From contig OU696572.1 of assembly GCA_916048095.2 (NCBI GenBank), forward strand, positions 12,273,164-12,337,163: 64,000 nt of DNA. Reading direction: 5' to 3'. This DNA is from Sacculina carcini (Eukaryota; Arthropoda; Thecostraca; Sacculinidae). Both the position numbers and the translations under genes were made by a program. The notes below the pieces were generated by a model. The model was not told the DNA's origin, searched no databases, and was given only the letters and a program-made list of their open reading frames with translations. This document shows, piece after piece, positions 1-59,718 of this stretch. The first letter of the stretch is position 1, and the number at the start of each line of letters is the position of its first letter.

Positions 1-3000
1 GTCGAGCCAACGAGGTGCATTTGCGACTAGCCCTCATCTACAAGGTGCGTCGCCAGTTCCGCCTCGCTCACAAGCGGTTCCGACTGGTGCTCTACGACTC
101 TGCTCCCTGCACCTTCTCGCGACATCAGAGTGAGTGTTAGCTGGGGCAGCAGTAAGCGGGGTCGGGTCGTTTTCAATACTGCTCAGTTGGTCAAAATATT
201 CCAGTATTAATCTAGCGTGTGCCAGCACAAAGCAGCATGCCAGTGCTGAACAAATACCCCGTCCTGCATCCAAGCCTTACTTGTGCACTATTCTGCCATC
301 TGCTGTGACGTACTGTGTGTGTGTGTTCAGTTGAGTTTCACATAGCGCACTTATACGAGGTGTGCGGTCGACTTAGTTGCGCTCGTCGCCGCTACGAGGC
401 GCTGCTGTCGCCTGCCCCACAACAGCAGCAGCAACAGCAGTCAGCTGATCAGCCGGTGGCGGCTGAGCTGCGCGAGAGCGTGTGTCGTCAGCTGGGCTGG
501 CTGCTACACACCTGCTGCCAGCTTGACTCAAACAGCAGTCGGCGACAACTGACAGCTGTTCAGCTGCTGCAACGTGCGCTTGAACTGGCACCGAAGGCGT
601 CGCGCACACTGTACCAGTTGGGCCGGTGCTACTCGAGCCTGGGCAAGGTGCATGAGGCGTTCCAGGCGTACAAACAGTCGGTCGTGTTCAGCGAGGCAAA
701 TGCTGACACCTGGTGCTCCATAGGGTCAGTTGAACACTGACACACTGACACACTGATACTGACACACATGGTGCTCCATAGGGTCAGTTGAACACTGACA
801 CACTGATACTGACACTGACATACTGATACACGGACACACTGATACTGACACACCTGGTGTTTCATAGGGTCAGTTGACACACTGATACTGACACTGACAT
901 ACTGATACACGGACACACTGATACTGACACACCTGGTGTTTCATAGGGTCAGTTGAACACTGACACTGACACTGATACACTAACACACTGACATACTGAC
1001 ACAACTGGTGTTTCATAGGGTTAGTTGAACACTGACACACTGATACACTGACACTGACACACTGATACACTAACACTGACACTTATACACCTGGTGTTTC
1101 ATAGGGTCAGTTGAACACTGACACTGACACACTGATACTGACACACCTGGTGTTTCATAGGGTCAGTTGGACACTGACACTGATACTGACACTGATACAC
1201 TGATACTGACACACCTGGTGCTTCATAGGGTTAGTTGAACACTGACACACTGATACACTGACACTGATACACTGACACTGACACACTGATACACTAACAC
1301 TGACACTTATACACCTGGTGTTTCATAGGGTCAGTTGAACACTGACACTGACACACTGATACTGACACACCTGGTGTTTCATAGGGTCAGTTGGACACTG
1401 ACACTGATACTGACACTGATACACTGATACTGACACACCTGGTGCTTAATAGGGTCAGTTGACACACTGACACACTGATACACTGATACTGATACACCTG
1501 GTGTTTCATAGGGTCAGTTGAACACTGATACTGACACACTGATACTGACACACCTGGTGCTTCATAGGGTCAGTTGACACACTGACACACTGATACTGAT
1601 ACACTGACACACTGATACTGACACACCTGGTGTTTCATAGGGTCAGTTGACACACTGACACACACTGATACTGATACACTGACACACTGATACTGACACA
1701 CCTGGTGTTTCATAGGGTCAGTTGACACACTGACACACACTGATACTGATACACGGACACACTGATACTGACACACCTGGTGTTTCATAGGGTCAGTTGA
1801 CACACTGACACTGACACACTGATACTGACACTGACACACTGATACTGACACTGACACACTGATACTGACACTGACACACTGATACTGACACACCTGGTGT
1901 TTCATAGGGTTAGTTGAACACTGACACACTGACACTGACACACACCTTTTATTCTTAACATGGCTAGATACTGAATGTGTTTATTGTATTTACATAAATG
2001 CATTATTGCATTTTGTATCTACCTTTGTCAATTGTTTGCTATGGCCCAATCATTCAAGTTACCTCATGTCTGTATGTGTCTGTGTGTTTGTCTGTCAGTG
2101 TGTTGTATCAGCAGCACAACCAGTGTATGGACGCGTTGCAGGCGTATGTATCTGCAGTACAGCTGGAGAAGTGGCACCGTCCTGCCTGGACCAACCTAGC
2201 AATTCTCTACGAGTCTGTTGGTCAAGCGCGTGACGCCCTCGCCTGCTTCGTCAACGCCACCACTGACACCACTGACACTGACACTGACACTGTCACCGAC
2301 ACTGACACCTCGTCAATCACCACACTGACCACATCTGCTGTCGGCTCCGTGTCAGCAACAGGTGAAATACTGACACACTGACACACTGTATCACTTGAGT
2401 ACAGTGTTGTCAGTGGTGAAATACTGACACACTGATATACTGACACACTATCACTTAAGTACACACTGGTGACTTACTGACACACTGATACACACTGACA
2501 TACTGACACACTGTATCACTTGAGTACACAGTGTTGTCAGTGGTGACATACTGACATACTATCACGCACTTACATACTGACACACTGATATACTGACACA
2601 CTGACACTTGAGTACACACTGGTGACATACTGACACACTGACACTTGAGTACACACTGGTGACATACTGACACACTGTATCACTTGAGTACACAGTGTTG
2701 TCAGTGGTGACATACTGACACACTGACACTTGAGTACACACTGGTGACATACTGATATACTGACACACTGACACTTGAGTACACACTGGTGACATACTGA
2801 CACACTGTATCACTTGAGTACACAGTGTTGTCAGTGGTAACATACTGACACACTATCACGCACTATCTATGACACTATGACACACTGATACACACTGACA
2901 TACTGACACACTGACACTTGAGTACACAGTGGTGACATACTGACACTGTATCACTTGAGTACACAGTGGTGACATACTGACACACTGACATACTGACACA

Positions 3001-57793: not shown

Positions 57794-59718
57794 ATGGTGA
57801 AGCTGACAGTCGACCTGATTCAAATGGCGCAGCAGCGCACGAACCCGGTGCGCGAGCGCGAGCTGGTGCTGCGTGGCTACAAGATCCCCGTGCTGGAGAA
57901 CTTGGGCGCCACGCTCGATCAGTTCGACTCGCTCGATTTGTCCGACAATGAGATCCGGCGACTGGACGGTCTGCCTCTGCTACGACGACTGCGCACGCTG
58001 ATGCTCAGCAACAACCGCGTCGTGCGTCTCGGCTCGCAGCTGCACGAACATGTGCCGCAACTGGAGACTCTCATTCTCACCAACAATTGTCTGCAGGTGC
58101 GTCATGTTCGTCTCATTTCTCGCATGCTCATACTTGCACACCAAGGTGTGTCGATGCCTGGAATCAGTTAGGAGAAGATATTGCAGGAGTTAACAGCAAA
58201 TAAATATTTAAAGAGTGCTTGGATAGTGTGAAATCCTGCTAGTTTAATTGAACATAGGCTACTAGAGGTTTGATAAGAGACACGAGCACAACCCATTTCC
58301 TGTGATTATATATAGGTGAGACACACACACACACACACACACACACACACACACACACACACACACACACACACACACACACACACACACACACACACAC
58401 TGATGGTTGGCACGGCAGCAGTGCGGACAGCGCGTGGGACTCATAACCAGGCACCTCGGAGTGGTGTTTTTTCAAGAGGGACTTTTAAATATCAGAATGA
58501 ACTCGAAACGAGACATATCTTATCGACATGGGCAGTGTATATTTTTGTATTTGTATTTCACACAACATACAGCTGCAGTGGCTTTTTGAGTGCATGTAAC
58601 AGGGCGTAAATATCTGCGGACACGCATTTACAATTAACACCGTCAATACGAGAATTGTCAAGCTATAGTAAATGATTGCGCTCTGTGATATGTTTTAATA
58701 ATTGAGAGGTACCGGTGTATTATTACTCGTGATTTCAAACTTGTTTTGCATCAAGTTAATTGCACTGGATAAACGACACGACATTTGTGATTCCCGTTTT
58801 TTCACGGTAGGAAATATTCCATGTCTATCATATGTTGTAGTTGCGGCATTTTGTGATCAATAATTATAGATGTCGCTGTTGTTGTATATATATCTGATTC
58901 ACAAGTGTATCTGGTTGATGTTTTGATGAAATAACCACGTATTCGTCATTTATACGTCATCAGTAGCTGCCTCGTGGCCTGTTTCAACCGTGTTTTCATC
59001 AAAACATAACATATTGTGAAATTAGCTGTTCTTTTTCCTCCGCTTGTCTCTCTGTGTGAGTGTGTGAGTGTGTGTGTGTGTATGTGTGTGTTGTTCGGTC
59101 TTATATCTTCATGCTCCATTTCTTCGTGCTTCTTGTTGTGTATGAGTGTATATTTGTGTGTGTGGGCGGGTGGATGGACAGGAGTTATGCGACTTGCAGC
59201 CGCTGAGCGAGTTAACACGCCTGGACACGGTGTGTCTCACTGGTAATCCCGTGGTCACCAGGCCTCATTACCGCCTGTTTCTAATTCACACGGTGCCCAG
59301 TGTGCGCGTGCTAGACTGTCGCCGTGTCAAGCTGCTTGAGCGACAACAGGCTGCCAAAATGTTCGGCGACGGAGCAGGCAAAAAGTCTAGCGCCAAAATA
59401 AAAAGCCGCCAAGTGAAGACGTTTGTGGTTGGCGGCGGTGACGTCACTGAGACAGCACGTGCCACAACAGTGACGTCACAACAGACCAGGCTGATCAAGG
59501 AGGCAATTGCACGCGCCTCGTCGTTGCACGAGATAGAACGGCTGAATCAGCTGTTGCGAGCCGGCGTTCAGCTGCCAGCCGACCAGCATCAGCTGCAACA
59601 ACTGCTGACAACATCGGCTGATTCGGCTGATCAGCCGGACAATGAACAAGAAGAGCCGGCGTCCACACTCGTGGCTCCAGCCGTCGATGATGCGGAAATG
59701 ACCGCCGTCGATGCCTAG
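57794..59718 (+). CDS. SNRPA1: U2 snRNP protein A' (U2A')
   Basis: Two exons, 57794-58096 and 59182-59718 (TAG), 279 residues; human has 255. Exon 1 starts MVKLTVDLI and carries the first leucine-rich repeats ([45 protein letters not shown]). Exon 2 begins ELCDLQPL and continues with [37 protein letters not shown], then the conserved C-terminal helix ([17 protein letters not shown]). U2A' binds U2B'' and U2 snRNA stem-loop IV within the spliceosome. Start chosen at MVKL, the family start; a longer reading begins at a GTG only. The 1.1-kb intron holds an (AC)n run. Confidence 0.96.
58319..58400. repeat. (AC)n microsatellite in SNRPA1 intron
   Basis: About 80 bp of uninterrupted CA on the plus strand. 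This is one of the few intronic runs that is CA rather than TG in the sense of its gene. Confidence 0.95.

Follow-up and report, generated by a model that had tools for sequence, protein, structure and literature searches.

Introduction

To our knowledge, animal 3' splice sites are regarded as being marked almost universally by a polypyrimidine tract. Dinucleotide repeats with a role in splicing have also been described, such as the (TG)m(T)n tract of CFTR exon 9, or the CA repeats of hnRNP L and the GT/AC repeat elements of fish introns, which are not known to be fixed in place or orientation at the acceptor. In human genes, UG-rich tracts have been tied to the choice of the 3' splice site (PMC6093180, PMC7969005, PMC7703929). 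PUF60 prefers poly(GU) (PMC7703929; PMC6093180), residues 204 and 207 in the pocket of its human structure hold a U and, after it, a G or a U, residue 201 being nearby (PMC7703929), and tracts of UG repeats respond in opposite ways to the knockdown of U2AF65 and of PUF60 (PMC7969005). TDP-43, for its part, represses CFTR exon 9 and cryptic exons, and can either enhance or repress (PMC5446763).

Here we analyze a stretch of 64,000 nucleotides from Sacculina carcini (assembly GCA_916048095.2, contig OU696572.1, positions 12,273,164 to 12,337,163, forward strand), referred to below as the window, in which exons of SIN3, UTX and other genes are preceded by TG repeats on the sense strand, i.e., UG in the transcript. 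The comparison was extended to acceptors of conserved genes throughout the source assembly (G000; 264.4 Mb in 43 contigs, designated by C numbers, with sampled loci designated by L numbers). The results suggest that the signal by which exons are found, and perhaps the proteins that read it too, have changed in this genome. Among the titles and abstract beginnings searched, in which few subscription journals were covered, no report of UG repeats as a general acceptor signal was found.

UG tracts upstream of acceptors

Within the last 60 nt of the intron, 56 of 101 homology-anchored acceptors carried a TG run (strict alternation of at least 8 nt) and only two carried a CA run by the same rule (bootstrap by gene group, TG share 0.38-0.71, CA share 0-0.05; binomial p=1e-14, acceptors within one gene being non-independent). 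The set is sequence-blind, covers both strands and forms 17 groups, namely SIN3 (11 acceptors, kept at agreement of at least 5 of 6 reference proteins), UTX (7, kept at 8 of 8 references), five dynein loci (24, L029-L033, kept at 2 of 3 references or more, with the junctions of L033 partly weakly aligned) and myosin-head exons on ten contigs (59). The alignments were made with a purpose-written spliced protein-to-DNA aligner that has no preference for TG because GT..AG is its sole splice rule; anchored junctions had a GT donor and an AG acceptor agreed across references, which is partly so by construction, since the aligner requires both. For myosin, at least 82 genome matches were found (65 of 154 candidates scored), of which two were dropped (one frame with the whole domain and one match beginning at position 1) and 20 others were without flanks; flanks were taken for 60, and the AG closest to the start of the match in the open frame, found for 59 of them, was taken as the acceptor. 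SIN3 and UTX junctions with few supporting references were excluded from the counts. The original prediction had counted TG repeats at about 15 of 17 SIN3 and 12-13 of 14 UTX acceptors; the junctions beyond the anchored ones fall in exons of poor conservation, where support came from fewer references (e.g., acceptors 35646, 3/6; 23199, 1/6; 4346, 5/8; 8656, 3/8; 11848, 1/8). For one SIN3 intron the donor is ambiguous.

The preference for TG was seen in 14 of the 15 informative groups. It was strongest in the window genes, with runs of at least 8 nt at 11/11 SIN3 and 5/7 UTX acceptors; the two UTX acceptors that miss the limit (2098 and 11354) are nonetheless UG-rich, with runs of 7. Dynein acceptors had a TG run in 9/24 cases (L029 0/4, L030 3/5, L031 0/6, L032 4/5, L033 2/4) and myosin acceptors in 31/59 (C4 11/15, C7 1/2, C16 2/2, C19 4/11, C20 2/2, C21 4/5, C23 1/6, C30 1/2, C35 0/4, C36 5/10). 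The original prediction, that sense-strand TG tracts replace the polypyrimidine tract at most 3' splice sites, therefore stands for the anchored SIN3 and UTX genes of the window and has to be lowered to about half for the whole sample, because dynein and myosin fall below those two genes. Of the only two CA runs, that in L031 measured 54 nt and that in L032, which is next to TG runs, 8 nt.

In the 120 nt upstream of the myosin matches, prior to any choice of the AG, TG runs were found in 31/60 and CA runs in 1/60, against 7/60 and 8/60 in the 80 nt downstream of the match. The 42 complete introns, in which interiors and donor sides could be compared, give the same picture. In the last 60 nt, TG runs took up a share of 0.171 of the bases and CA runs 0.025; the corresponding values were 0.103 vs 0.015 at -120 to -61, 0.020 vs 0.023 at -180 to -121, 0.018 vs 0.019 in the interior and 0.063 vs 0.070 over the first 60 nt. 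TG in the last 60 nt thus exceeds the intron interior ca. 9.5-fold. What is seen is surplus TG close to acceptors, neither a purge of CA nor a property of the whole intron. A comparison of TG and CA near acceptors against intron interiors had been proposed with the original prediction for all annotated acceptors of the genome; on the 101 homology-anchored ones it gave the TG excess at acceptors and balance in the interiors.

Patterns blind to acceptor status point the same way over the whole genome (both strands), where (TG)9.5-NN-CAGG occurs 677 times, with 162 for the reversed control, and (CA)9.5-NN-CAGG 85 times, with 51 for its control. TG and CA repeats are certainly abundant (105 TG and 49 CA tracts of at least 5 units on the plus strand of the window), and a neutral microsatellite load, or a strand asymmetry of introns linked to transcription, would supply them everywhere. 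Such an origin is very improbable for the pattern described here: it is contradicted by the balance of the strands in intron interiors and at the donor side, with an imbalance limited to ca. 120 nt before acceptors, by the 56 versus 2 runs at the acceptors themselves and by the 677 versus 85 occurrences in the genome. The claim that the bias is specific to acceptor and orientation, and no neutral CA/GT load, was thus borne out, and in the sampled genes the cis pattern stands on firm ground.

Twenty 10-kb samples from contigs C1 and C2 were also surveyed for TG and CA tracts. One of them (L019), a non-random choice made for its strong strand excess, has 8 TG and 37 CA tracts on its plus strand, and its kinase exons lie on the minus strand, as the orientation predicted; two of its ten open reading frames match kinase families on that strand, and the one match on the plus strand, to Mucin, is below the cut-off. 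Pfam searches with the open reading frames of two other samples (eight in L020 and two in L028) gave no match; for L028, with 1 TG and 27 CA tracts, genes on the minus strand are predicted. Both kinds of tract are sparse in most of the mid-contig samples of C1 and C2. Likewise, among the (TG)n-CAGG places listed (C1 to part of C3), most are concentrated in the outer parts of contigs and few are found mid-contig.

The tracts at individual acceptors of the window are given below. The sites of the minus-strand genes, like site 15352, were identified from the sequence, with no alignment anchor, and those called acceptor-like have this basis; the fractions are the references in agreement.

314-330, plus strand: UTX acceptor UG tract (8/8)
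2066-2098, plus strand: UTX acceptor, interrupted UG-rich tract, longest run 7 (8/8; run length)
11322-11354, plus strand: UTX acceptor, interrupted UG-rich tract, longest run 7 (8/8; run length)
12590-12611, plus strand: UTX acceptor UG tract (8/8)
13273-13301, plus strand: UTX acceptor UG tract before a JmjC exon (8/8; PF02373 and PF21322 downstream)
13816-13842, plus strand: UTX acceptor UG tract (8/8)
14894-14921, plus strand: UTX acceptor UG tract (acceptor 8/8, one donor in 7)
23767-23818, plus strand: SIN3 acceptor UG tract (6/6)
26960-27032, plus strand: SIN3 acceptor UG-rich tract (6/6)
28255-28272, plus strand: SIN3 acceptor UG tract (6/6)
28806-28829, plus strand: SIN3 acceptor UG tract (6/6)
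32251-32277, plus strand: SIN3 acceptor UG tract (acceptor 6/6, donor ambiguous)
32559-32650, plus strand: SIN3 acceptor, long UG tract (6/6)
33065-33086, plus strand: SIN3 acceptor UG tract (6/6)
34118-34142, plus strand: SIN3 acceptor UG tract (6/6)
34661-34680, plus strand: SIN3 acceptor UG tract (6/6)
35176-35191, plus strand: SIN3 acceptor UG tract (6/6)
36289-36318, plus strand: SIN3 acceptor UG tract (5/6)
37283-37303, minus strand: acceptor-like UG tract of a minus-strand gene
43993-44040, minus strand: acceptor-like UG tract
44844-44870, minus strand: acceptor-like UG tract of the LIM gene (cysteine-rich LIM-like frame downstream)
45136-45160, minus strand: acceptor-like UG tract of the LIM gene (cysteine-rich LIM-like frame downstream)
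46388-46405, minus strand: LIM gene acceptor UG tract (PF00412 match directly downstream)
47722-47760, minus strand: acceptor-like UG tract
59149-59181, plus strand: UG-rich acceptor of the U2A' (U2 snRNP) gene (match to human U2A' starts right past the AG, ELCDLQPL vs ELGDLDPL)

All 17 sites that had been named individually (11 on the plus and 6 on the minus strand) have sense-strand TG runs before the AG. The run at 13302, given as 25 bases, is 23 nt long when only pure alternation is counted.

Base composition and other splice-site features

At positions -33 to -4 of the 101 acceptors T+C was 0.550, the same as the 0.549 found at -160 to -101, while T+G was 0.735 versus 0.553; T+G reached 0.8 or more in 51/101 acceptors and T+C in 0/101. 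The test for pyrimidine (U/C) enrichment upstream of the AG thus came out negative. Where a TG run is present, C goes down to ca. 0.07 and G up to 0.37-0.39. Because the excess is confined to acceptors and there is no pyrimidine enrichment, UG tracts standing in for the polypyrimidine tract are the simplest account of the data.

The main rival is tolerated slippage, by which the tract would need just U-richness and the absence of AG, TG would grow there for being half U, and an ordinary U2AF65 would read the U with no preference for G. This explains well the 45 acceptors that have no TG run, which are merely U-rich and have G and C in similar shares (0.21 and 0.20, respectively, at -15 to -5), and it is in line with the scarcity of AG before acceptors (0.018 per dinucleotide, against 0.035) and with the capacity of U2AF65 to adapt to degenerate tracts (PMC7703929). 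Nevertheless we consider it unlikely, although far from negligible. It leaves unexplained the 9.5-fold TG excess, seen with no purge of CA (last 60 nt 0.025, interior 0.019), it would make (TC)n or T tracts common too, yet T+C stays at background, and RRM2 of U2AF65 is altered in both copies found in this genome (see below).

As at canonical sites, position -3 was C in 71-78% of the acceptors and C or T in ca. 94%. TGAT-like words were mildly enriched in the search for branch points, in what is a small sample. Formation of a pUG-quadruplex, which requires 12 repeats (PMC12276007), was considered as a general cause and set aside, since only 8 of the 56 runs reach 24 nt. Donors were near-canonical save for position +3, where 31% of the 39 homology-supported ones have a C (GTCAGT class), which is unusual for pairing with U1; among these donors are window positions 724, 10346, 12748, 13631, 23495 and 33882, and others in dynein loci L030 and L031.

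Candidate reading proteins

U2AF65 is encoded by two uninterrupted genes that lie head-to-head on contig C26, 1.9 kb apart. Head-to-head duplicate pairs of both TDP-43 and U2AF65 are found on this one contig, and the coordinates of the two pairs are listed together as C26:5886003 (minus)/5886773 (plus) and C26:1032223 (minus)/1035393 (plus). The U2AF65 copies are identical at 304 of 434 aligned positions; their last 120 residues are fully identical while RRM1 and RRM2 have diverged, a distribution that could reflect gene conversion of the UHM. Residues were compared with the best 120 of 1839 homologues, with the numbering of a human sequence that agrees, for the RRM part, with PDB 5ev1 and with residues named in PMC4786784. 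Position 289, Asn in 120/120 of these homologues, is His in both copies, and 334, Arg in 120/120, is Leu in one of them. At 271, where 114 homologues have Asn, the copies have Thr or Ser, and at 268 they have Pro or Gly against Asn in 95 homologues (Ala in 19, Ser in 3, Thr in 3), Amphibalanus having Thr at both. K260, F262 and F304 are kept.

As regards PUF60, a copy on C31 scores above the family cut-off and has the RRMs and the UHM. The stretch KVGRPSN of the published UG pocket, with its numbering inferred from spacing, is kept in this copy and in a second PUF60-like match on C16.

The N-terminal domain of TDP-43 was found at three loci, two of them head-to-head, and the original prediction had named CELF/Bruno or TDP-43 proteins as possible readers. 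Such UG-binding regulators could sit on the tracts to enhance or repress exons, the tract being then regulatory and no core signal. TDP-43 can act in both directions (PMC5446763) and the motif UGUGUGU is common to CELF proteins (PMC6093180), both of which fit. However, the pattern described here is at conserved-domain exons of housekeeping genes, whereas TDP-43 acts as a repressor in the examples with UG tracts given in PMC5446763, namely CFTR exon 9 and cryptic exons, and we regard a purely regulatory tract as improbable. The broader proposal that UG repeats act in 3' splice-site definition agrees with the acceptor-specific and orientation-specific excess and with the human precedent; what has less support is the choice of CELF or TDP-43 as reader. 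PUF60 and the changed U2AF65 seem better candidates, because of the biochemistry of the human proteins and the residue changes.

A model for the UG tract

We lean, by a modest preference, towards the explanation that at about half of the 3' splice sites the sense-strand UG tract fulfils the function of the polypyrimidine tract and is read by PUF60 and/or the altered U2AF65. According to this model, core factors that recognize the 3' splice site and belong to the UHM family would bind a (UG)n tract, mostly of 8-23 nt, upstream of YAG, through the UG pocket of PUF60 and/or the duplicated, changed U2AF65, and would recruit the U2 snRNP to the branch point. Recruitment of the U2 snRNP involves the UHM together with SF3B1 or SF1. 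The repeats would be supplied by slippage of TG, with selection retaining the sense ones that adjoin acceptors. The cis pattern with its orientation and place, the lack of pyrimidine enrichment and the gene copies with their altered residues were seen directly; we infer that these acceptors are used in the RNA, which protein binds the tracts and that selection maintains them.

Several observations weigh against this explanation. To begin with, 45/101 acceptors have no TG run (among them T+G has no clear lead over T+C, being higher in 24 and lower in 14) and some groups have none at all (dynein L029 0/4 and L031 0/6, myosin C35 0/4), so that a strict requirement is excluded; the tract is common, not obligatory. 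No positioned branch-point peak appeared in a search of the 101 acceptors for YTRAY and 5-mers. On the protein side, the RRM1 contacts of U2AF65 are mostly kept (Y152F and F197Y in copy B), a text search of the available part of PMC4786784 did not find residues 268, 271, 289 and 334, and the second PUF60-like match is RRM-only, below the family cut-off and with no UHM match in its frame. Gene duplication, moreover, may be general in this genome and not special to the readers of the tract.

It is also conceivable, and we put it forward tentatively, that the code of the 3' splice site has been rewritten genome-wide, the cis signal having coevolved with its core reader (U2AF65, PUF60). The head-to-head U2AF65 duplicates, with an identical UHM and with RRM2s in which otherwise invariant residues are absent, could be read in this way, as could the duplication of PUF60, although we hold this too as somewhat less than an even bet. 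If true, this would be a natural experiment in the joint change of a core splicing signal and its reader. The natural variants make the specificity of U2AF65 and PUF60 directly testable, and the slippage of microsatellites would be linked to the making of splice sites. More practically, a gene finder whose training rests on pyrimidine tracts may be misled in genomes of this kind.

Other features of the window and of the sampled genes

The genes of the window include UTX/KDM6 (JmjC and KDM6_C-hel), SIN3, a LIM gene and U2A'. The closest matches of UTX are one record with 58% identity and Amphibalanus amphitrite with 57%, and the other named matches listed are arthropods, mostly insects. In the UTX tree, the window UTX, the 58% record and Amphibalanus come together with support 100/100, in an alignment where the joined window UTX covers 41% of the columns and where both it and P0121 drew a flag for their letter composition; in the same tree the U2AF65 copies are on long branches, on the barnacle's side of a supported branch. 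On the minus strand, 17511-18740 and 39377-43077 hold frames that we take to resemble a hAT-type transposase and a retroelement polyprotein. Another frame recurs as a dispersed repeat, at 50724-51335 and 52016-52457 (minus strand) of the window and also at 6774-6956 of L029. There are besides large minisatellite arrays within or adjoining introns, at 4503-8600 (27 bp x 154, open for more than 1300 codons on both strands), 23970-25941 (10 bp x 193), 29444-32224 (26 bp x 107) and 45161-46218 (34 bp x 32).

Among the genes sampled elsewhere, the AAA1 domain of dynein heavy chains occurs eight times without interruption (on C3, C23, C25 with two, C31, C8, C1 and C6), in seven cases within an open frame of 4025-4695 amino acids, and there are five or six intron-rich dynein genes besides; the giant intronless genes were perhaps retroposed. 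In myosin, exon 379-436 is present as a tandem duplicate that resembles mutually exclusive exons, at L047/L049 (C36) and L043/L044 (C23). One member of the C36 pair has a TG tract and the other has none, and neither member of the C23 pair has it.

Comparison with known systems

The sites described here share with the canonical U2-type site, read by U2AF65, the YAG, a tract directly before it, the depletion of AG, donors that are near-canonical except at +3 and the very presence of U2AF65. They differ in having U/G in the place of U/C, with no pyrimidine enrichment, and in a U2AF65 that is duplicated, uninterrupted and changed in its RRM2. The CA repeats of hnRNP L and the GT/AC elements of fish are likewise intronic dinucleotide repeats, but here the repeat has a fixed place and orientation at the acceptor. 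CFTR exon 9 and TDP-43 provide a case of a UG-rich tract near an acceptor with a UG reader bound there (PMC5446763), although TDP-43 represses that exon, whereas here conserved exons of housekeeping genes follow the repeats. The human exons activated by PUF60 (GANAB exon 6, DNM2, FYN) have UG-rich or UG-repeat tracts before the acceptor as well (PMC6093180, PMC7969005, PMC7703929); there they are a set of regulated exons, and here such tracts precede about half of a broad sample of acceptors.

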